Source: a virus
Virus record (IMG/VR): IMGVR_UViG_3300031141_000039
Span: 1 to 24,882 of that record
Direction: 5' to 3' (one strand)
DNA: 24,882 nucleotides
The notes under the pieces: model-generated
Databases searched by the model: none
The model's input: only the letters and a program-made list of their open reading frames with translations
What the model was told of the DNA's origin: nothing
Program-made: the position numbers and the translations under genes
Shown: positions 1-21,449 of the stretch, in pieces
Layout: each line of letters starts with the position of its first letter
Numbering within the stretch: position 1 is the stretch's first letter

Positions 1-5
1 GTGCC

Positions 6-458
6 ATGAAACGGCGCACACTCGGCCAGTGTTTTCATGCCGAGGCGTCAAGCGCCGATATTTACGAAATCTTCATATCACCCACCCTGGCCGACAATGT
101 CGACGTTGCCGCCGTGCTGGCGCATGAGTTATGCCACGTTGCGGATAAATGTGAAAACGGCCACAGGGCACCATTCACCAAATTGGCGCGCATGTGCGAG
201 TTGGAGGGTAAACCTACCGCCACGGTGGCGGGTGAGGCGTTTAAACAGTGGATTGACGAGCAATGGCACATTTTAGGCAACTACCCGCACGCCGAGATTG
301 CGGCAAACCCCCAACACAAAAAACAAACAACACGAATGCATAAGGTCACTTGCGCGAATGATGATTGCGGCATGGTGTTTAGGACTAGCGCCAAGTGGAT
401 TGACGCCAACCCAGAATTATCATGCCCGGCATGTGCGGCACCGTGCCGCATAGCCTAA
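6..458 (+). CDS. SprT-like zinc metalloprotease (5' end probably cut by window edge)
   Basis: The visible part is 150 residues from the first ATG. An HELCH motif (HExxH, H40-E41-H44) is followed by a GH at residues 52-53, as in SprT/Spartan-type metalloproteases. A C-terminal zinc ribbon is formed by C116, C121, C140 and C143. Family members cleave proteins, including DNA-protein crosslinks, and phage versions are common in early or replication regions; the substrate here is unknown. The frame stays open to the window edge and the text before HELCH is shorter than a full SprT domain, so the real start is probably outside the window and the ATG at 6 internal. The stop lies inside a repeat shared with the next gene. 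The family call is firm and the start is not. Confidence 0.8.
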   Translation: MKRRTLGQCFHAEASSADIYEIFISPTLADNVDVAAVLAHELCHVADKCENGHRAPFTKLARMCELEGKPTATVAGEAFKQWIDEQWHILGNYPHAEIAANPQHKKQTTRMHKVTCANDDCGMVFRTSAKWIDANPELSCPACAAPCRIA

Positions 459-806: not shown

Positions 807-965
807 ATGACCACATTAGACAATTGGCCTACACAAACCAAACTTCGCGGCACACACGAAGATGAATTTGAAGGTTACCTGACTTTTGCCGACGATGGTA
901 AGGGTGGTGACGTTACCCGCAATGGCGCGCCACTTAAAACATTTGAGGAATGGATGAATAGCTGA
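807..965 (+). CDS. 52-residue phage protein of unknown function
   Basis: A short frame from ATG 807 to TGA 965. It starts MTTLDNWPTQTKLRGTH and ends KTFEEWMNS. It is acidic and soluble, with no recognisable motif. The upstream ribosome site is weak (GATGGGA near 792-798). Support comes from its fit between repeat A at 764-787 and the hairpin element beginning at 964, with neighbours in the same direction on both sides and no competing frame. It may be a small early host-modifying protein, but nothing in the sequence says so. Confidence 0.55.
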   Translation: MTTLDNWPTQTKLRGTHEDEFEGYLTFADDGKGGDVTRNGAPLKTFEEWMNS

Positions 966-1024
966 GTTTCTCGCGGCATACCCGCCCACAATGGGCGGGT
1001 ATAGCGCGGCAAATTCTACCGCAA
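964..1024 (+). ncRNA. Structured RNA element B, copy 1
   Basis: A perfect 10-bp stem pairs 979-988 with 992-1001 around loop CAA. An outer CGCG (972-975) can pair with CGCG (1005-1008) across a symmetric 3x3 internal loop. Conserved flanks are GAGTTT on the left and GCGCGGCAAATT then TACCGCAA on the right. GCGG (1006-1009) can instead pair with CCGC (1019-1022), giving a possible alternative fold. It sits in the gap before the exported-protein gene. There is no T-run after the stem, so it is not a classical terminator. A cis-acting RNA signal, processing site or protein-binding hairpin is inferred. Confidence 0.7.
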
Positions 1025-1044
1025 AACAGAGAAAGTAAACCAAA

Positions 1045-1386
1045 ATGAAGAAAATTTATGTGGCTTTAGGCGGTCTGGTAGCAGTTTTATCGGCTGGCGG
1101 TATCGCGGCAAATGCCAGCTACTCAAACGACTGTAACTATAATTCAGACGGCACGTATACCGCAAACGGCCAAACGTCGGCCCACGGCACCATGAACGAC
1201 GCTATGCATTGCGCCGCCCAGGGCGTCTTGCCTGAGATAGTGGCGCAACGCCTCGGCGTGTGGGGTGATGATGAAGCGCAAGAATGGGCGCAGCAAATCA
1301 GGACGTTAAATAACGAAATCCGCCTGAAAAATGAGGAGGCGGCAAAAACGGCGGAGTCGGAAACCGCAGCACCTATTGTAGAATAA
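1045..1386 (+). CDS. Small exported early protein of unknown function
   Basis: One hundred and thirteen residues. The N-terminus, MKKIYVALGGLVAVLSAGGIAANAS, is a clear Sec signal with a likely signal peptidase I site after ANA near residue 24. The mature part has two cysteines (in NDCNY and MHCAA) that could form a disulfide in the periplasm. A charged helical C-terminus (about residues 75-113, LNNEIRLKNEEAAKT) may form a coiled coil. It is an early-region gene flanked on both sides by copies of hairpin element B. Exported early phage proteins often alter the envelope, for example by blocking superinfection; that role is only a guess here. No family is recognised. Confidence 0.75.
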   Translation: MKKIYVALGGLVAVLSAGGIAANASYSNDCNYNSDGTYTANGQTSAHGTMNDAMHCAAQGVLPEIVAQRLGVWGDDEAQEWAQQIRTLNNEIRLKNEEAAKTAESETAAPIVE

Positions 1387-1389
1387 TAG

Positions 1390-1451
1390 GAGTTTTTCGC
1401 GGCGTGCCCACCGCGCGAGCGGTGGGTATAGCGCGGCAAATTTTACCGCAA
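1390..1451 (+). ncRNA. Structured RNA element B, copy 2 (covarying stem)
   Basis: A 10-bp stem pairs 1405-1414 with 1419-1428 around a GCGA (GNRA-type) loop. The flanks are nearly identical to the copy at 964-1024, including outer CGCG at 1398-1401 and 1432-1435 and the later TACCGCAA. Compared with copy 1, three stem pairs are changed on both strands so that pairing is kept, and one A-T became G-T. This pattern supports selection on an RNA fold. It lies between the exported-protein gene and the next gene. Confidence 0.75.
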
Positions 1452-3099: not shown

Positions 3100-5397
3100 T
3101 TATCCCAAGTCTGCGCTAATTTCGACCACATTTGACGCCAATTCTGTTTTGCTCATCTCCTCTATGAACATATTTGCTTGGCGCAAGTCATCTTGTGCCA
3201 CCCATTTCTGTCTCTGGCGGATGGCGCGCAGCTCAGTTTGTTTTCCATTTATCAAATATCGCGCACCATTTTTGGTGTCGTCGGCGCGTAATGTTTTAAT
3301 TTTACGCCAAATCAACCGGCCAGTTGCGCCAGGTTCACGCATGATTTTCTCCAAATCCAGGTCTCGCGCAGCCCAGCCAATAGCAGTTTTTAAGGTCTTC
3401 GCAGATACCAAATCCGGGGCGTGATGCTCCAGAATATGATCAAAGATAATATCAGACGGGGCCCGGCTGCTCTCTGTCATCATCGCTTTGGTGGCTGTCA
3501 TCGGCGGGTAGATGTGGTCATACTCACTAACATCGCGCCTCATGAGCCACCAATACGCGCGCTGTGCTTCGTCGCCCGACAGAGCGGCGTTCAGTTTATC
3601 ATAATACGCGTACCCTCGTCGCGTGGTCGGGTTTTCGATGCAGAATGTGCGCCGGCATTCCTCCTCCAATGCAATAGCATCAATATGATTCGAGAATATC
3701 AGTGCATTAAAATAGATGTTAGTGGTGCGGGTGCGCCCGTACTTTGGGTTAATGCGCTGATTCTCACCCACGCTGGTGTCGACACGCTGTTTAAACGTGT
3801 CGTAGGCGTGATAAAAATCATCGCGAGTAAGCGACGAGTCTTTCGACTCCTCAACCACGAGATATTGGCAGTCGGCCATCCAGTCATTATAGGTCTGCTC
3901 GGCGGATGTGCCTTTTCCAATAAGCTGGCCCATTGAGGCTGTATTGATGTTGCCTTGCAACACACGTTCGAGGAACTTTTTTATCCACGAGCGCCCGGTG
4001 CCGAATGCGTTCTCGGCCACCATGATCACAGCGTAGGAGCGTGAGTCGGGGTATTGCAGTTTATAGGCTAGCCAGTTGAGGAACACCTCCCGCTCGGTTT
4101 TCTTCGGTATAAGGAACTCGATGTGTTCTAAAAACACACCCGGCACAAGCGTCGTCTCCGCGTGATTGGGCGGCACGTATGTGTTGAGATAGGCTTGGCC
4201 GTGCGCCTGCACCACGCCCACGTCTTGCCAGCGCTTGACCGGCTTATAGATGGTGTCGACGGCGCGGCGTGTGCGTGAGCTGGTGAGAAAAGCAGTCGAG
4301 ACCGGCACGGGGGTGTCGGCGCCGGGCATACTGACCTTGCCCATGTGCTTCAGTTTCCAGTCGGCCAGCGGCCACATCCACTTCCCGCCATGCGGGCGCT
4401 GGAGTACATCGGCGACACGCTGTTCCGACTCAACATAAACATACTGCGCTTGCAGCCACGGCAGCGGGTCATACCCTGCAACATGCGGCGCGCCCCGCCC
4501 CTTGCCCCACTTGACGAGGTCAGCCAAGCGCTTGTCCGTACAATGATCATGTTGGCATTTAAAGGCTCGCGTCGGGACATAATCGCCATCACCTCGCCCT
4601 AGTGGGCTGTAACCGGCGACGTTCTCACCAGTGGTGTGCTGGTCGGCCCACGGACAGATAATATCCACCCAGGCGTGGCCGCCATCTTTAATAATCATGC
4701 CTTGCGTCGCCAACCAATCCAACATAGGGTCGATGTTGGCTCTTGCCTCAAAACTTCCCGTTTTGATGTTGATGACCTCGGCGCTTTGAGTCTCCTCCCG
4801 CAGAGCGTCGAGGTCTGCTCCCATATCCCCGACTAACTCTTCGGCAGACCACATGGGCATGTCCCAGTGTCCAACCAAACTATGAAACATGTCACGGCCC
4901 GGTTTGAGATTGGCTGATCCAGGGACGCGCACCACCCGGTATGCGCCACCGGCACCGCCGTCTCCCCATCCTTTATCGGCACACCATGTGAAGAGCGCTT
5001 CGAGTAAGCTGAACTCAGTGGACGGTTCAAGGAAGTATCCATATTGGAAATTGTCTTTCGACGTTTCGATCTTCCAGGATGGCTCGACAGGAGGCGGTGT
5101 TGCTTTAGTGCCGATGTCATCGAGAACAAAACAGTGCTGGCGTACCAAGTTAGCCCGCCCGCGCCCCACCATCGAACCTTTCGCATTCATCTCTCCATCT
5201 ACTGTGGACACGCAGAAGTACCATGCGTGATCCTGTTTATCCGAGTCCCACTTGCGCCATGCCCTATCGGCCGTCAGGTGGTTGCTGAAGAACGAACCGT
5301 TGCCGTCCTCCTTCATTATCTGCCGGCAGACCATGACATTCTCACCATCCTCCAGCTCGGCGAAGATAGTGTCTAAGAACTCATTCGCTTTGATCAT
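3100..5397 (-). CDS. Primase-helicase fusion (RepB/AEP-like primase plus DUF5906/SF3-type ATPase)
   Basis: Seven hundred and sixty-five residues. The N-terminal third resembles RepB-type or archaeo-eukaryotic-type primases: a HCFVLDDIGTK strand with acidic D93-D94, and YRVVRVPGSANLKPG (about 153-167), a basic nucleotide-binding motif. The second half is an SF3/DUF5906-type ATPase with P-loop AFGTGRS (464-470), a Walker B-like strand YLVVEES near 510-518, and a sensor-like IYFNALIFSNH. A basic C-terminal region, probably winged-helix, completes it. Such proteins prime and unwind phage DNA. The P-loop lysine is replaced by Arg469. The start overlaps the upstream stop (ATGA), and this is the last gene of the minus-strand replication operon. 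Confidence 0.85.
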   Translation of the reverse strand: MIKANEFLDTIFAELEDGENVMVCRQIMKEDGNGSFFSNHLTADRAWRKWDSDKQDHAWYFCVSTVDGEMNAKGSMVGRGRANLVRQHCFVLDDIGTKATPPPVEPSWKIETSKDNFQYGYFLEPSTEFSLLEALFTWCADKGWGDGGAGGAYRVVRVPGSANLKPGRDMFHSLVGHWDMPMWSAEELVGDMGADLDALREETQSAEVINIKTGSFEARANIDPMLDWLATQGMIIKDGGHAWVDIICPWADQHTTGENVAGYSPLGRGDGDYVPTRAFKCQHDHCTDKRLADLVKWGKGRGAPHVAGYDPLPWLQAQYVYVESEQRVADVLQRPHGGKWMWPLADWKLKHMGKVSMPGADTPVPVSTAFLTSSRTRRAVDTIYKPVKRWQDVGVVQAHGQAYLNTYVPPNHAETTLVPGVFLEHIEFLIPKKTEREVFLNWLAYKLQYPDSRSYAVIMVAENAFGTGRSWIKKFLERVLQGNINTASMGQLIGKGTSAEQTYNDWMADCQYLVVEESKDSSLTRDDFYHAYDTFKQRVDTSVGENQRINPKYGRTRTTNIYFNALIFSNHIDAIALEEECRRTFCIENPTTRRGYAYYDKLNAALSGDEAQRAYWWLMRRDVSEYDHIYPPMTATKAMMTESSRAPSDIIFDHILEHHAPDLVSAKTLKTAIGWAARDLDLEKIMREPGATGRLIWRKIKTLRADDTKNGARYLINGKQTELRAIRQRQKWVAQDDLRQANMFIEEMSKTELASNVVEISADLG

Positions 5398-9780: not shown

Positions 9781-9806
9781 GGGGGTGCTACTGCCGTGGC
9801 ACCCCC
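9781..9806 (+). ncRNA. 5'-leader hairpin before the coiled-coil/polymerase genes
   Basis: An 11-bp stem pairs 9781-9791 with 9796-9806 around TGCC, with one G-T wobble. It ends 11 bases before the GGGAGAA ribosome site at 9817-9823. It is not followed by T residues, so a role in mRNA stability or translation is more likely than termination. Confidence 0.5.
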
Positions 9807-9829
9807 ACCTTAAATCGGGAGAATTTGAG

Positions 9830-10024: not shown

Positions 10025-12030
10025 CGCAGATGTCTAAAATGTGCTGGATTGACCTTGAGACGAGGAGCAACGTCGACCTCATATTCCACGGCCTAATGCG
10101 CTACGCGCAAGACCCGTCGACGCAGGTTATATGTATGGCGTGGGCGTTCGACGATGAGCCGGTGGAGTTCTGTTGGTTGAACGGGGGCTTTCCGGCGGCG
10201 GTTGAGAAGCACATTAGTCAGGGCGGTGCGATCACAGCCCATAACGCCGAGTTTGAGCGCGCTATTTTCGAGTTCGTGATTAACCAGGACTACGACCTGA
10301 CGCCCGCTTTACTCTCACAGTGGCGCTGTTCAATGGCGATGGGGCTGGCGAACGGCTACGGTGCCGCGCTAGATACCCTCGCCACGGGTCTCGCGCTGCC
10401 GTTCCAGAAGAACCCGGAAGGCACACGGCTGATACGTGAGTATTGTGCCGCCGGCCATAAGGATATCTTCGCGCCTGAGTACGAGAAAGACCGTGAGATA
10501 ATGAAGGCGTATAACATCTCCGACGTGGAGGTGATGCGCGCCGCAACTAAATGCCTGCGCCCGCTCACCGACGATGAGTGGGAAGAGTATCAAGTCAACA
10601 GCATCATCAACCAGCGCGGCATCCCTATTGATGTGGAGTTCTGCACAGCGGCGCTGGGCTACACCTACGAGGTGTCCGACGACGCCAACCGCATGATCTG
10701 TGAGTTGACAGGTGGGGTGATGACCAAGGCCACTGAACGCAAGAGCCGTGACGCGTGGCTATTCCCGAAGCTCACACCATATCAGATGAAGTTGTTGGAG
10801 GTTTATAAAAAAGGTGAGAAGAAATTCAGTCTCGATCAGGACCACCGGAGGTATTTACTCGAATGTGACGATCTCAGCCACGAGGCAAGACGACTGCTTG
10901 AGTATATCGATAACGCCGGATCATCCGCGCTTAAAAAGTACGCCGTTGCGGCGCAGACTCATGTCGAAGGCCGAGTTCATCAGACATTTCTCTGGAATGG
11001 TGCAGGAAGGACTGGTCGCTTTTCTGGAAAAGGATTACAACCCCACAACATCAGACGAGATGTCTATTCGGATAACGATGCTGCGGCGTTCATCGCCGAT
11101 ATCCGAGAAGGATTTAAATTAAAGAAGCCGGCCGAGACGATGGCCCGCCTATTACGTGCCATGATATACCACCCTGACGGCCTCTACTGGGTTGACTGGA
11201 GCAGCATTGAGGGCCGTGTAGCGCCGTGGCTGGCTAATGACTCGGATGGTGAGCGCAAGCTCGACATCTTCAAGCGGAACCTTGATGTGTATAAGGTGAC
11301 AGCCGGGAGGATGTTTCACCCTCAGGGCTACTACGGGTCGACCGGTGACACCGACGCTGTCGACAAAGACCAACGGCAAGCCGGTAAGATCGCGGAGTTG
11401 AGCCTCCAGTTTGGTGGATCACACAACGCGCTGATCAGCATGGGTAAGAATTTTGGAGTGCAGTTCACGGAGGAAGAGGGCCGTGAACACGTCATCAACT
11501 GGCGCCGCACAAACCCTTGGGCCGAAAGAATCTGGTTCGCCTACGACGACGCCATCAATCGCGCTGTGCGTACAGCAGGTGTGTCGATTGAAGTGGGGCG
11601 TGTCACGTTCCAGAGTGACGGACAGAACTTCCTCTGGTGCCGCCTCCCGTCTGGCCGGCTGCTGTCCTATCCAAAGCCCTACTTAGACCACTACGACACG
11701 CCGTGGGGTGAGGAGCGTTATGGCCCCACTTTCCAGACCCACTTCAAGCCGGCAGCGCATGAGCCGCCGATACGCCGGCATCTGCGCGGCGCGCTGGTGT
11801 TTCAGAATACGGTGCAAGCTGTCGCGGCTGACTTGTTACGTGAGGCGCTGGTCTATGCGCACGACGCCGAACTTAACATCATCGGCCACGTCCATGATGA
11901 GATCATCGGCATCGGCACGCCAGACGATGGCGCGGTGTTGAATGGGATCATGTTGGAGGAGCCTGAGTGGGCGCCCGGTCTGCCAATTGCGACAGGCGGC
12001 GTGTCACATGGAACGAGGTATGGAAAATGA
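10021..12030 (+). CDS. polA-like: Family A DNA polymerase with 3'-5' exonuclease
   Basis: Six hundred and sixty-nine residues from GTG 10021, which overlaps the preceding stop; ATG 10030 is an alternative. The exonuclease domain has D11-x-E13 (WIDLETRS) and HNAEFE (74-79). Polymerase motif A is D392 in WVDWSSIEGR, motif B is R452-x3-K456-x3-L460-x3-F464-G465, and motif C is HVHDE with D626-E627. No 5'-3' exonuclease domain is present, as in many phages. L460 aligns with E. coli Phe762, placing it in the Leu762 group common in viral metagenomes. F464 replaces the usual Tyr766. This is the replicative polymerase of the phage, downstream of the nuclease and ssDNA-binding-type genes. Confidence 0.95.
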   Translation: MTQMSKMCWIDLETRSNVDLIFHGLMRYAQDPSTQVICMAWAFDDEPVEFCWLNGGFPAAVEKHISQGGAITAHNAEFERAIFEFVINQDYDLTPALLSQWRCSMAMGLANGYGAALDTLATGLALPFQKNPEGTRLIREYCAAGHKDIFAPEYEKDREIMKAYNISDVEVMRAATKCLRPLTDDEWEEYQVNSIINQRGIPIDVEFCTAALGYTYEVSDDANRMICELTGGVMTKATERKSRDAWLFPKLTPYQMKLLEVYKKGEKKFSLDQDHRRYLLECDDLSHEARRLLEYIDNAGSSALKKYAVAAQTHVEGRVHQTFLWNGAGRTGRFSGKGLQPHNIRRDVYSDNDAAAFIADIREGFKLKKPAETMARLLRAMIYHPDGLYWVDWSSIEGRVAPWLANDSDGERKLDIFKRNLDVYKVTAGRMFHPQGYYGSTGDTDAVDKDQRQAGKIAELSLQFGGSHNALISMGKNFGVQFTEEEGREHVINWRRTNPWAERIWFAYDDAINRAVRTAGVSIEVGRVTFQSDGQNFLWCRLPSGRLLSYPKPYLDHYDTPWGEERYGPTFQTHFKPAAHEPPIRRHLRGALVFQNTVQAVAADLLREALVYAHDAELNIIGHVHDEIIGIGTPDDGAVLNGIMLEEPEWAPGLPIATGGVSHGTRYGK

Positions 12031-12928: not shown

Positions 12929-13992
12929 CACTTCTTCTTTCTTAAAAATGTGAGAAAATCCGCCGCCAACTCCATGTCTTGAAAGCACTGCACCATTTGT
13001 GAGTCCGGTTTTGCCGGGTCGATGATCGCGGTGATCGAATGGCCTGATTTCTGGGTGTCATGTCCCAATTGAACCCCATAGCTGTCTATATCCTTGTAAC
13101 CTTTAGCACGTACCAGCCAATAAGTAAAATCACGCTCCGCGTTCTCCTCATTGAACATGGCCGCGTTATGTTTATGCCCACAGGCGTAGATGTGCGCCTG
13201 GTCTTTCATCTTCGCGGCTTTCATCGCGCCGTGTAGGCTGTTCCATTGAGAGTGGCCGGGGAAGTCGTGGCTCATCCACACCCTACAGCGGCGCTTATTG
13301 GGGAACACCAACCCGAACCGCGCCTGCCACGCCGCCATCTCCATGCCGGGGAATTTCTCTTTACGCTCGGTGACGACCTCACCGTTCATGGCGCGGAGGA
13401 TGGCCTCGCCGTCATTCCAGAGATCATGGTTGCCGAGTATCCACGCTAACCAAGTGACACCGCTGTTGGAGAGCAGCCAGTTGGCGAGGAGGCGCGCCGT
13501 CTCTTGAGAACTGTCCTGATCTGCAAACAACCGCCCAAGCCGGCCGACCCAATTGTTAGTTGTGTCGCCGCAATTGACTCCGAACAACGCCTCCGTCCGT
13601 GCATGGATTTCGCAATGGTGCATCAACATCGGGGTATTGCAGCCGTTGTCATCAATGTGGGGGTCGCCAAAAAACGACACCCCTATTGGCCCGTCGACGT
13701 TGATTTTAATATCGTACCACTTACGGGCGGAGTAGCCGTGCTCCAGCTTCTCATATCTTTTACACTGCCACGCCAATATCTCTTCGGCGGACGGGTTGGT
13801 GTTGGGGAATTGAGGGAACTCTACATCCGATGTAGGAGGCGAATCCTCCGTTAAAGAACGCGCGTGTTTTAAGTTGTAGTTAAATGTCTGGCGCGGCACA
13901 CCCATAGCACGCGCCGCTTGCGCGGCATTGCCGTCTGAGGCGGATAAGGCGTCAAGGTAGTTTGTGAGGTCTGCATCAGTCTTTCGAGCCAC
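12928..13992 (-). CDS. Metallophosphoesterase with N-terminal HTH
   Basis: Three hundred and fifty-four residues from GTG 13992 (TAGTG overlap with the gene before). Residues about 20-45 (GNAAQAARAMGVPRQTFNYNLKHA) form a helix-turn-helix. The calcineurin-like motifs then follow in order: D110-x-H112 (GDPHID), G142-D143 (CGDTTNNW), G187-N188-H189-D190, H242 (SHDFPGH) and G272-H273-x-H275 (CGHKHN). All metal ligands are present, so it should be an active phosphoesterase or nuclease. The HTH suggests it acts on DNA. Its place between exported proteins and the holin is not explained by this function. Confidence 0.88.
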   Translation of the reverse strand: MARKTDADLTNYLDALSASDGNAAQAARAMGVPRQTFNYNLKHARSLTEDSPPTSDVEFPQFPNTNPSAEEILAWQCKRYEKLEHGYSARKWYDIKINVDGPIGVSFFGDPHIDDNGCNTPMLMHHCEIHARTEALFGVNCGDTTNNWVGRLGRLFADQDSSQETARLLANWLLSNSGVTWLAWILGNHDLWNDGEAILRAMNGEVVTERKEKFPGMEMAAWQARFGLVFPNKRRCRVWMSHDFPGHSQWNSLHGAMKAAKMKDQAHIYACGHKHNAAMFNEENAERDFTYWLVRAKGYKDIDSYGVQLGHDTQKSGHSITAIIDPAKPDSQMVQCFQDMELAADFLTFLRKKK

Positions 13993-15133: not shown

Positions 15134-15955
15134 CTATCGTTGCCCCGCAGCTAAAATGTTTAGCATGGGAGACAGGTGCCCCGAAAATCTCCGCCACGCT
15201 TCGGACGATCCCCTATACATAGGTCGCTTTACTTGACTAGCCGAGGCGCTGGCCACTGTTAATCCGTTCTTGTGGAAGTCCAGGCACCGAGAGCGCCAGG
15301 GGAGGCCGACATATTCAAGCATACGTCGGGTTTCACTCTCTTGGTTCTCTGTTAGAAATTCATAATCGATTTGATATATAGGGAACCGCTCTGCCCAGAA
15401 CCGCATAAGGTCTTTATGAAGGTTGTAAAAATGGGCGATGCTTTCCTGGTCAAAACTATACTCATGCCCGCGCTCAAAATTCGCCGTGTAGTTAGAAAAA
15501 CAAGTCGCCCTTGCGTCCCTGTTCAGATAAATAATCTTTGCCTCTGGCATCGCGCTGAGAATAAACCCTATCCACCTGAAGTTCAGCGGCATCTTGTCGA
15601 GAACGTACCTCTTTCCGTTGGACGGGAGTGCCTTGAGATAAGCGCACCTCAATTCTTTTAATTCACTTAGGCCAAAACCCTTTCCCATGTCGGAGATACA
15701 ATCCCACAACAAAGTCAATTCCCCTGCGGTATGAACTTCGGGATGACTTGCTAGGATCTGCTCGACCAAAGTTGTACCTGATCGTGGCATACCTAAAACA
15801 AAAATAGGGGCAACATCCATCTCTTCGTCAACAACTGGGAAACCATCTTTGAAAGCGTGTTTTATCCGCCCAAATGCAGCTTCGTCGTCGCCTATATCAA
15901 AGGGGAGGTGCGCCCTTCGATCCCTGTTCGCTGTTTCTATTTCAAGAATATTCAT
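15134..15955 (-). CDS. PAPS-dependent sulfotransferase-family protein
   Basis: Two hundred and seventy-three residues. The P-loop-like 5'-phosphosulfate loop PRSGTTLVEQ (57-66) follows IFVLGM, and AGEL (77-80), LDKMPLNF (119-126) and NRDARATCFSNY (145-156) complete the Sulfotransfer_3-type pattern. The sequence resembles bacterial proteins in which TPR repeats precede this domain; the TPR part is absent. Enzymes of this family move sulfate from PAPS to a hydroxyl or amine of a glycan, lipid, peptide or small molecule. The start overlaps the upstream gene's stop (ATGA), so the two are co-translated. The pair looks more AT-rich than nearby tail genes and is probably acquired cargo. Confidence 0.85.
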   Translation of the reverse strand: MNILEIETANRDRRAHLPFDIGDDEAAFGRIKHAFKDGFPVVDEEMDVAPIFVLGMPRSGTTLVEQILASHPEVHTAGELTLLWDCISDMGKGFGLSELKELRCAYLKALPSNGKRYVLDKMPLNFRWIGFILSAMPEAKIIYLNRDARATCFSNYTANFERGHEYSFDQESIAHFYNLHKDLMRFWAERFPIYQIDYEFLTENQESETRRMLEYVGLPWRSRCLDFHKNGLTVASASASQVKRPMYRGSSEAWRRFSGHLSPMLNILAAGQR

Positions 15956-17148
15956 AGCGACAACACCGAATTAAATTCTTCGACGCCGAATACTTTTTCG
16001 CAAGCGTGACAGTCCCAACAACGGTTTTTACACTTAGACAAAACCTTGCTGAGACCCTGCCCCTTCTTTGTGTTCCAGATCGATGATATATCTTCGGCGC
16101 TGTGTTGCTGGGCCTGTGCTAAATTTGTCCAGCCTTGCGGTGCCCATCGATCCACTAAATATGGTGAAAGACTTTTCTCATATATCTCTTGAAATGAATC
16201 TGCATACTCAAAAGCGTCAAGTAATTTGCCACTTTCCAAGTCGATTTTTCTGTTTCCCTTTTCGATGCCGGACCAGCACATTCGGCCATCGGGATCGATC
16301 CCTTGTGATTGCCCCAACCGTCCGCTGAATTTAAAAACATCTACATTTTCAGAAAATTCATCGACAATTTCTTTGGTAGCCATCGAGATATTAACGCCCA
16401 GCCTGGGCAGTTGCTCGGTATATGGGGTTCGCCAGCGCACGCAGGTCGTCGGAAAAGTCTGCCAATAATTTGATTCTGATTGCTGCAATGGTGCTTGCCA
16501 CATATCATGCTCTTGCTTGAAAGGGCAGCTCGGCATACAGGACTCAGACGCTAATAGCGATGTTTCAACCTGTAGCTTTTTCGTCTCTTGGCGGATTTCT
16601 TTCAATAAATCGATATCTCTATTCAAAGAGCGATCCAATAATATTGTCGTGTACCCCAGAGCTGCGTAGTCGTACACCTCTTGAGTAGATTTAACCAAAT
16701 GATTGACGGTGTTTTTCCAATTCATATCTGGGAATGCTTCTTGCAAAGCCCCAGTCCTCATCAGATGAGTCGAGCTAATTGTGCAAACCCTCAGACCCCG
16801 CTCATAATATCCCCGTATAAATTCTAGCATCTCATTTATGACGTTCGCGTCAGACGCCAATTCCTTGCCCATATCCAGGGTATTTAGGGTGAGAGAAATT
16901 TCTGTCCCGAACTCATCTTGGATTTTGAAGAGGTTATCTAATTGGGCTGGAGAAGGCATCACGCCCATTACGTCTCCATACTTTTTCTTCTCCCCCTCAT
17001 ACTCATAATGAAATTCCCCGCCGAAAAATATGTCGCGAATCTCGTCCTTGTATTCTTTGGCTGAGTTTTTAAACAAGCGATAGAAAATGTCGTCGTCGGA
17101 ATAGTTGTCCCAATGTGGTATCGAAAATTTTCGGGTAAAATCCGGCAC
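15952..17148 (-). CDS. U32-like (beta/alpha)8 protein with Fe-S-type cysteines, function unknown
   Basis: Three hundred and ninety-eight residues from GTG 17148, two bases after the previous stop. The layout resembles peptidase U32/UbiU-UbiV-type proteins: successive strand-helix units (EISLTLNTLD, YYERGLRVCTISSTHLM, VYDYAALGYTTILLDRSLNRDIDLLKEI in parts) lead to a Cys pair in SESCMPSCPFKQEH (C204, C208) and a further C236. At the C-terminus is an extra cluster C373-x3-C377-x2-C380-x2-C383. Known relatives bind 4Fe-4S clusters and act in hydroxylation or peptide processing. The assignment is from pattern alone. It is coupled to the sulfotransferase by ATGA, so the two may modify a common target. 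Confidence 0.5.
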   Translation of the reverse strand: MPDFTRKFSIPHWDNYSDDDIFYRLFKNSAKEYKDEIRDIFFGGEFHYEYEGEKKKYGDVMGVMPSPAQLDNLFKIQDEFGTEISLTLNTLDMGKELASDANVINEMLEFIRGYYERGLRVCTISSTHLMRTGALQEAFPDMNWKNTVNHLVKSTQEVYDYAALGYTTILLDRSLNRDIDLLKEIRQETKKLQVETSLLASESCMPSCPFKQEHDMWQAPLQQSESNYWQTFPTTCVRWRTPYTEQLPRLGVNISMATKEIVDEFSENVDVFKFSGRLGQSQGIDPDGRMCWSGIEKGNRKIDLESGKLLDAFEYADSFQEIYEKSLSPYLVDRWAPQGWTNLAQAQQHSAEDISSIWNTKKGQGLSKVLSKCKNRCWDCHACEKVFGVEEFNSVLSL

Positions 17149-19637: not shown

Positions 19638-21449
19638 TCATATGATCGTCACGTTACCGGCCACGGTAAGCGTGACCCCGCTGGCTATGGTTAACGGGCC
19701 AGTAGCACTCGCATTTTCTGCGGCTAAAATTTCTGTCGAAGTGTTTAATTCAGCTTCATTGATGCGGAAAATGTCACCAGCACTTGATCCAACTGTTCCG
19801 TTGTCGCCCTTAAAATATCCAGCACCGCCTCCTATTGATCCCCAGGCGGGGCTTGCACCGGAGTAGCCCTCAAACTCATTGGTGGTGCTGTTGTACCTAA
19901 ACATCCCCACGGCGGCGGAGCCGTCGCGTTGTGCAGTTGTGCCTGTTGGTACATTCGCACTACCGGTCGCGCTTGTGCGCGGCGTGAGGCCAGTGCCGGA
20001 AAGAGCAATCGTACCGCTGGTTGTGATCGGTGAGCCAGATAGAATGCTCACGCCATCAGCACCAGTGACAGCCACAGATGTCACCTGTGAGGTGGCAACC
20101 GTATCCGCCCAACTCGATCCGTTATAAAATCGCAGCACGTTGGATGTCGTGTTGTAGTGTAAATCGCCCTCATCGAGGCTACTTACGGGATCACTCGATG
20201 CTACTCGATAGCGCTCGGCAAACGAGTTAACGCCAGCGATGTTGGTTGCTACGGTCGCCATCGCGGTCACATTTGCGCCGGTGCCGAGCACGTTCATATC
20301 GGTCACGACATCGGCGGTGCCGAGCACGTTCATATCAGTTACGACATCTGCCGTGGCCAGGGTGTTCATGTCCGTTACGATATCGGCGGTGCCGAGGGTG
20401 TTCATATCAGTGATGACGCCGGATACGCCGAGCAAACCCATCGCGGTTACATTTGCACTTGTGCCCAGAAGGTCCATGTCTGTGACAATAGCGGCAGTAC
20501 CAAGAGTGTTCATGTCCGCTACAACATCGGAGGTAGCTAGGACGTTCATATCAGTTACGACATCAGCCGTACCTAAAATATTCATGTCGTTCACGACATC
20601 GGCGGTGCCCAGGATGCTCATGTCCGTAAGGACGGCGGCCGCAGAAAGCGCGCTCATGGCAGTTACATTTGCACTGGTTCCTAACAGCCCCATGGCCGTT
20701 ACGTTTGCGCTTGTGCCCAGCAAATCCATGTCGGTCACGATTGCAGACGTGCCAAGCGTGTTCATGTCAGCGACGGCGTCCGACGTGCCTAGCCTACCAA
20801 TTTCGGTCGCCTTGGCAGCAACCGCGCCAATGTCAGTTGCGTCGGCAGCGACCGCCGTCACATCTGAAGATATACCAGCGACGGTGGTGACGTTAGCAGA
20901 AATACCGGCAACGGTGGATATATCACCTGGAATTGTACCGAGAGTAGCAAGGCCAGATGTAGCAATGGTTGTTTCAGGGTTGCCGGCAGAGTCGAACGCC
21001 AACACCTTAGAGGCCCGTGTTATTTTCGCGGGAATCACGGCAATGTCAACGGTATCGCCGTCTGGCTGGCGCAGACTGCGATCAACCTGTGAATTGGTTT
21101 GTTGCGCCAACATGGTCAGGATATCGAACTGTTTCTCGACCAACTCGGATGGCATATTATCGTTCTCGACAAGGTCAAGTCCTTGCGTGAACTGCTCTAC
21201 GCGAGAGATCAGCAGTGTCTGACCGGACGCAGGCGCTGAACTCATCGTGACAGTGCCACCAGCAGCCACACCCGCGCCCACTATAGTATAATGGGTCGTG
21301 ATGGTCTGCACCGTCTCCACGCCGGTGCTGTCCACTGTCAGCGTAACCACGAGATCAGCGTTATCAAAGAACAAATAAGGAAAGCTGAACGCCGTGGCAG
21401 AGCCGTCACCGGCAGTGCTGACTCGTGTGGTAGTCGTACTAAAAGTCAT
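19638..21449 (-). CDS. Tail fibre protein with T7 gp17-type N-terminus and 12-residue repeats
   Basis: Six hundred and three residues; AGAGGAT lies 9 bases before ATG 21449. The N-terminal 150 residues (TTTTRVSTAGDGSATAFSF, FDNADLVVTL, PASGQTLLISRVEQFTQGLDL) match the virion-binding domain of T7-like fibres. A stem with VAGIS-NVTTVAGIS-type repeats leads into fifteen tandem 12-residue units (consensus LGTADVVTDMNV) coded by 20253-20792. The distal part (LHYNTTSNVLRFYNGSSW, MFRYNSTTNEFEGYSG) has the paired Y-N-T-F-Y-G strands common near fibre tips. The protein anchors the fibre to the tail and extends it toward the receptor. Confidence 0.88.
   Translation of the reverse strand: MTFSTTTTRVSTAGDGSATAFSFPYLFFDNADLVVTLTVDSTGVETVQTITTHYTIVGAGVAAGGTVTMSSAPASGQTLLISRVEQFTQGLDLVENDNMPSELVEKQFDILTMLAQQTNSQVDRSLRQPDGDTVDIAVIPAKITRASKVLAFDSAGNPETTIATSGLATLGTIPGDISTVAGISANVTTVAGISSDVTAVAADATDIGAVAAKATEIGRLGTSDAVADMNTLGTSAIVTDMDLLGTSANVTAMGLLGTSANVTAMSALSAAAVLTDMSILGTADVVNDMNILGTADVVTDMNVLATSDVVADMNTLGTAAIVTDMDLLGTSANVTAMGLLGVSGVITDMNTLGTADIVTDMNTLATADVVTDMNVLGTADVVTDMNVLGTGANVTAMATVATNIAGVNSFAERYRVASSDPVSSLDEGDLHYNTTSNVLRFYNGSSWADTVATSQVTSVAVTGADGVSILSGSPITTSGTIALSGTGLTPRTSATGSANVPTGTTAQRDGSAAVGMFRYNSTTNEFEGYSGASPAWGSIGGGAGYFKGDNGTVGSSAGDIFRINEAELNTSTEILAAENASATGPLTIASGVTLTVAGNVTII
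20253..20792 (-). repeat. Fifteen tandem 36-bp repeats inside the tail-fibre gene
   Basis: Fifteen consecutive 36-bp units, each coding for a 12-residue segment of the form L-G-T-x-x-V-x-D-M-x-x. Units differ at a few codons; some carry NVTAM in place of VVTDM. No spacers are present and the frame is kept throughout. Confidence 0.92.

Follow-up and report, generated by a model that had tools for sequence, protein, structure and literature searches.

Paired RNA rods between early genes of a tailed phage, tentatively read as RNase III-type processing or stabilising punctuation

The DNA analysed here (the window) comprises 24,882 nucleotides (nt) of IMG/VR virus record IMGVR_UViG_3300031141_000039. 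Near its left end, a gene for a small exported-looking protein is flanked by two intergenic stretches, inspected directly in the sequence (966–1044 and 1387–1471), each of which holds a long imperfect hairpin. These hairpins, rods A and B, lie in the following setting.

963–965, + strand: stop codon TGA of an upstream open reading frame (ORF) of 52 amino acids (807–965), overlapping the base of rod A
964–1016, + strand: element A, an RNA rod of 53 nt and 22 base pairs (bp), read in the sequence and by folding; basal helix 964–969/1011–1016, middle helix 971–975/1005–1009 and upper stem 978–988/992–1002 (11 bp), with terminal loop CAA above and a 2×2 internal loop below the upper stem
1017–1044, + strand: A-rich leader of 28 nt from rod A to the next ATG, predicted to be unstructured, with a purine-rich ribosome-binding region, GAGAAAG, at 1029–1035
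1045–1386, + strand: gene for the exported-looking protein (113 amino acids), between A and B
1390–1443, + strand: element B, an RNA rod of 54 nt and 22 bp laid out as in A; upper stem 1404–1414/1419–1429 and terminal loop GCGA, of the GNRA type
1444–1471, + strand: A-rich leader of 28 nt from rod B to the next ATG, nearly unstructured, with ribosome-binding region GAAAGGGG at 1459–1466
1472–2212, + strand: GP88-family gene (PF17338), following rod B
2612–2848: HTH gene in the operon of A and B
2871–2912, + strand: hairpin (13-bp stem) with a T-run after it, which closes the early operon in the manner of an ordinary terminator

The 113-amino-acid protein has no match in Pfam or PHROG. Two shorter junctions of the same operon (459–496 and 770–806, 37–38 nt) are without a rod; between small early genes here are weakly structured linkers, 453–487 and 764–798, that are 86% alike (GCCTAATA.CTGAGCGTTTAAACA) and possibly mark points of gene gain and loss. 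Elsewhere in the window, a sulfotransferase-family gene (PF13469) in the late-gene region adjoins a 398-amino-acid protein with a cysteine-rich end and no Pfam match (15134–17148), and a 603-amino-acid gene (19638–21449), which probably encodes a tail-fibre-like protein, contains an array of 36-base units (20258–20761; 12-amino-acid repeats, for example VTDMNVLGTAD).

A sequence-only reading of the window had proposed the hairpin pair; both hairpins are present, with the loops it named. The stems that it placed at 979–988/992–1001 and 1405–1414/1419–1428 are correctly located, and each is 1 bp longer (11 pairs). Its suggestion that conserved CGCG flanks add an outer helix also holds, as two outer helices in A extend the stem to a rod of 22 bp. 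By folding, the basal helix of A pairs GAGUUU with AAAUUC, the middle helix of both rods is UCGCG/CGCGG and the 2×2 internal loop is GC/AG. Predicted energies are −34.5 kcal/mol for A (z = −6.0) and −36.3 kcal/mol for B (z = −3.6), and no shuffled sequence reached either. Shuffling yields 0.35 hairpins of such strength (at least 11 bp, score of 17 or more) per window; the real window has four, all of them intergenic: A, B, the terminator stem (2871–2900) and a hairpin at 9781–9807. This last has an 11-bp stem without a T-run and ends about 23 nt 5′ of an ATG (9830), ahead of the DNA polymerase gene; it is placed like the rods, but has no internal loop and does not directly follow a stop codon.

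The two rods differ most in their upper stems. Three base pairs changed on both sides between A and B, as had been claimed (984G–996C to 1410A–1423T, 987C–993G to 1413G–1420C and 988A–992T to 1414C–1419G); the single A–T to G–T wobble of that account proved to be two, at 980 and 978. Across the upper stems 8 of 22 bases differ and all 11 pairs are kept, versus 2 differences among 36 flanking bases (Fisher p = 0.004). When 8 random substitutions were placed in the 22 stem bases, all 11 pairs survived with p of about 2.3–2.5 × 10⁻⁴, in a test that assumes A and B to be homologous copies, an assumption backed by their shared flanks; this and the substitution tests below are simple simulations on few copies with stems picked for their pairing. 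Template-switch repair appears unlikely as a source of the paired changes: B retains G–U pairs, and perfect copying of one arm would leave none.

Further copies were sought with three DNA patterns and five proteins against viral contigs, and with one pattern against genomes. Among these, close sequence copies of A and B occur only in one record, L002 (IMGVR 3300031625_000053), where the exported-protein gene (93% identity at the protein level) again sits between two rods, A′ and B′. B′ is identical to B over 85 bases and is therefore not independent evidence. In A′ a TG to GT swap opens two loop-proximal pairs, which leaves 9 of 11 and alters the best fold. Similarity between the window and L002 spans the base of A (about 967) to the leader of B (about 1465); beyond it, the window ORFs at 497–769 and 807–965 are absent from L002, and an unrelated ORF of 111 amino acids takes the place of the GP88-family gene. 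The linker type seen at 453–487 and 764–798 also precedes A′. Near the end of its HTH gene, L002 carries an ORF of 169 amino acids that is absent from the window (13165–13674); it is HNH-endonuclease-like by eye and without a Pfam match.

Pattern-scan matches beyond L002 were read as chance, the rod being absent (by folding, for the matches of one scan also by checking open frames, and for those of another by reading their surroundings). Left-arm matches of 12–13 bases in records L022, L025 and L023 were rejected, as they fall within coding sequence (the terminase gene or a different ORF), and GP88-family relatives (L008–L020) are other phages in which the stretches before the GP88 gene hold neither a copy nor a model match. 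No relative of the region was found among annotated phages and plasmids. Much of the window's genome layout recurs in DSL-LC05 and two Manatee Spring podoviruses, along with the terminase (44–45%), but stop-codon rods of the A/B kind are missing from their gaps, where strong folding is confined to a T-run terminator and a short AT-rich palindrome.

A covariance model built from A, B and the L002 copies returned a weak third match, C, in L002 (20 bits, E = 0.13). The rod C (11001–11052) forms 20 pairs capped by GAAA, has a 3×3 internal loop, versus 2×2 in A and B, and lies between the first ORF and an SprT-like gene. A counterpart lies on contig L070, the end of which overlaps window positions 1–127 at 100% identity, and the two versions of C differ by two compensated pairs (p = 0.007, simulation). 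We accept C as a rod despite the weak model match because of its own fold, its location and the compensated change in L070. In the L070 copy we probably see the third rod of the phage itself, some 0.3 kb beyond the window's left end. From 2275 on, the window has an identical counterpart, over the stretch compared, in a 37,594-base record, L021, and L070 overlaps 1–127; assemblies end within the early operon, a hint at strain variation in that region.

In a distant relative with a primase 53% identical (L023), four related rods, R1–R4, occur in the early operon. Compensated pairs are found in the inner stem between R1 and R2 (p = 0.0023) and in the outer stem between R1 and R3 (p = 0.015; both by simulation). 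Pairing there is imperfect: R2 has a C–C mismatch, R1 an A–C mismatch, and R4 keeps 9 of 10 outer and 9 of 11 inner pairs. A different hairpin in the R5 gap (about 3863–3942) was left out of the rod counts. Another relative, L022, carries a shorter rod, D, of 41 nt and 14 pairs. No sequence relation of the L023 and L022 rods to A–C is detectable, so the class rests on architecture; common descent is possible. The check proposed by the sequence-only reading, a search for many further copies, came out largely negative: in these scans close sequence copies were confined to L002, and the broader support lies in rods of like architecture in L002, L070, L023 and L022.

Ten rods in five related phage records share a regular layout. 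Nine are 51–57 nt long with 17–23 bp, D being the exception. Eight of ten begin no more than 6 nt from the stop codon of the gene before them; A′ begins 19 nt past it, and upstream of R4 the gene's stop codon falls within the rod itself. Nine rods end 27–35 nt ahead of the next start codon, and R4 44 nt ahead. The leaders in between are rich in A and lack structure (own minimum free energy of 0 to −2.4 kcal/mol). Within the operon flanked by terminase and primase, A, B, C, R1–R3 and D each occupy a gap between two genes of one strand. Fold z-scores of the ten rods range from −4.0 to −8.1 in a biased sample, the rods having partly been found via a hairpin search; firmer evidence comes from the spacing rule and from the compensated changes. 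In seven of ten rods the sense strand folds more stably than the antisense, a preference that arises from G–U pairs. The rod structure is well supported computationally, and the earlier suggestion of a cis-acting RNA element is borne out in that pairing is mostly held while sequence changes, both in the A/B simulation and in the relatives. Paired changes that include G–U, the greater stability of the sense strand and the placement between a stop and a start codon together speak for a function in mRNA; the rod thus probably acts there, its sequence shifting with pairing mostly kept.

Rfam covariance models gave no match in the window at E values up to 1, and in L023 and L070 only two matches far below gathering scores, none at the rods, in agreement with the earlier statement that no named RNA family fits. 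Among known systems, the R1.1 signal of phage T7 is an RNase III signal formed by a rod with an internal loop (PMC6121014, PMC8708148). R1.1 and other early-region T7 signals resemble A and B as imperfect rods of about 50–60 nt with an internal loop between early-operon genes. R1.1 has an asymmetric 4/5 internal loop, whereas the loops here are small and symmetric (2×2 in A and B, 3×3 in C); the asymmetry is R1.1's own detail, and other RNase III substrates may do without it. The T7 signals have no sequence relation to the rods, the regular stop and start spacing is a feature of the rods, and RNase III cleavage of the rods is putative. A helix of 12 bp is enough for RNase III (PMC8708148), and against a requirement of at least about 12 bp with an internal loop the rods offer 14–23 bp with mismatch loops, in gaps of an early operon for which a polycistronic transcript is predicted.

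PeSLs (promoter-early stem-loops) of T4-like phages are stem-loop cassettes between early genes in a gene-shuffling region (PMC4503421). They are like the rods in being stem-loops between early genes where genes shuffle, and differ in belonging to an unrelated phage group. PeSLs are coupled to an early promoter; none associated with the rods was recognised by a sigma-70-type scan, which has no match in A's gap and one by B's leader. They also differ in shape from the rods, which are long and have an internal loop. REP/BIME elements of enterobacteria are repeated intercistronic mRNA hairpins with compensated stem changes. The rods share these properties but are phage-borne, match no library model, occur as a few copies in one operon and keep a set distance to the next start.

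Our leading, still tentative, interpretation makes A and B copies of one RNA punctuation element, of RNase III-type processing or stabilising function, between the cistrons of a tailed phage's early operon. Once transcribed, each rod (about 53 nt, 22 bp) would run from a gene's stop codon to about 28 nt before the next start. By analogy with the T7 signals, host RNase III may recognise and cut the rod, which would split a polycistronic early mRNA into separately lived cistrons with a stable hairpin at each boundary, and the A-rich, unstructured leader would keep the next ribosome-binding site open. We infer transcription through the rods, cutting and stabilisation alike. Against processing stand the symmetric 2×2 and 3×3 internal loops, the broken pairs in A′, R1, R2 and R4, the position of R4, within which the preceding gene ends, and the two rod-free junctions.

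It is somewhat unlikely, yet the next reading in rank after RNase III-type processing, that the rod stays uncut and serves as a passive stabiliser and translation insulator, blocking exonucleases as REP-type hairpins do and shielding the next ribosome-binding site from terminating ribosomes and upstream structure. The stop-codon position and the constant unstructured leader suit such a role, all rods are highly stable and cleavage is not required; however, a length of 51–57 nt in nine of ten and a recurring internal mismatch exceed the needs of a simple block. A bolder and rather improbable extension is a modular punctuation of fixed spacing (stop, rod of about 53 nt, open leader of 27–35 nt, start) at long early-operon junctions, with genes exchangeable as self-contained expression cassettes and the rods possibly read by a phage-encoded RNA-binding or RNA-cutting protein, not host RNase III.

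The earlier account also raised a two-state fold, in which GCGG pairs with a downstream CCGC. In A, GCGG (1006–1009) can pair with CCGC (1019–1022), and UUUCUC (967–972) with GAGAAA (1029–1034). This would make a translational switch, improbable in our assessment, in which UUUCUC in the 5′ strand of the rod binds the next gene's ribosome-binding region whenever the long rod is not formed. In A the alternative costs 1.3 kcal/mol relative to the best fold, and in A′ it is itself the best fold; A and B differ at a single left-flank position (970 C, 1396 T), for which a G to A change in the ribosome-binding region can compensate; and pairing between arm and leader exceeds that of shuffles in A and A′ (p of about 0.03), with a borderline result in C. 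In B, however, the alternative is 2.2–5.1 kcal/mol above the best fold, and arm–leader pairing is no better than chance in B (p = 0.18), C of L070 (0.61), R1–R4 (0.38–0.96) and D (0.16). Any purine-rich ribosome-binding site would pair with a pyrimidine strand. The near-isoenergetic state thus stands for A, and its conservation across the class does not.

A packaged mobile linker had been suggested as well, and is partly supported: the A–gene–B block is common to L002, with neighbours on both sides exchanged. That the hairpins are DNA-level landing points for early-gene exchange, PeSL-like and without a strong RNA role, is nevertheless quite improbable. In its favour, the genes around the block (two ORFs upstream, one gene downstream) are exchanged relative to L002, and similarity breaks off at A's base and in B's leader; yet homologous exchange favours identity, and the stems diverge fastest with pairing kept. 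A's gap also lacks a promoter-like site, and B's leader has a single sigma-70-like match (10 of 12 at 1457–1484, overlapping the leader and the start of the next gene) in a sigma-70-type scan that gave seven matches in the window versus 3.2 in shuffles. Least probable is a role in terminating or attenuating transcription, or as a palindromic DNA site bound by a repressor: these are strong intergenic hairpins in an operon with an HTH gene, but a T-run is absent directly after either stem and on both strands (as the earlier reading had noted, and a terminator scan reports neither rod), which makes a terminator unlikely, while the hairpin at 2871–2912 with its T-run ends the operon, and G–U pairs and divergent stems are ill-suited to an operator read as DNA sequence.

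We favour RNase III-type processing, followed by passive stabilisation and insulation. The rods are real RNA elements with structural support, absent from Rfam, probably of an ordinary functional class and in an unusually regular layout. They add an undescribed, covariation-supported structured RNA to uncultured tailed phages and suggest a simple rule by which early genes are separated as expression units within one transcript. If cutting occurs, T7-style mRNA processing would extend to an unrelated phage group, and the rods would offer compact insulating parts for synthetic operons.
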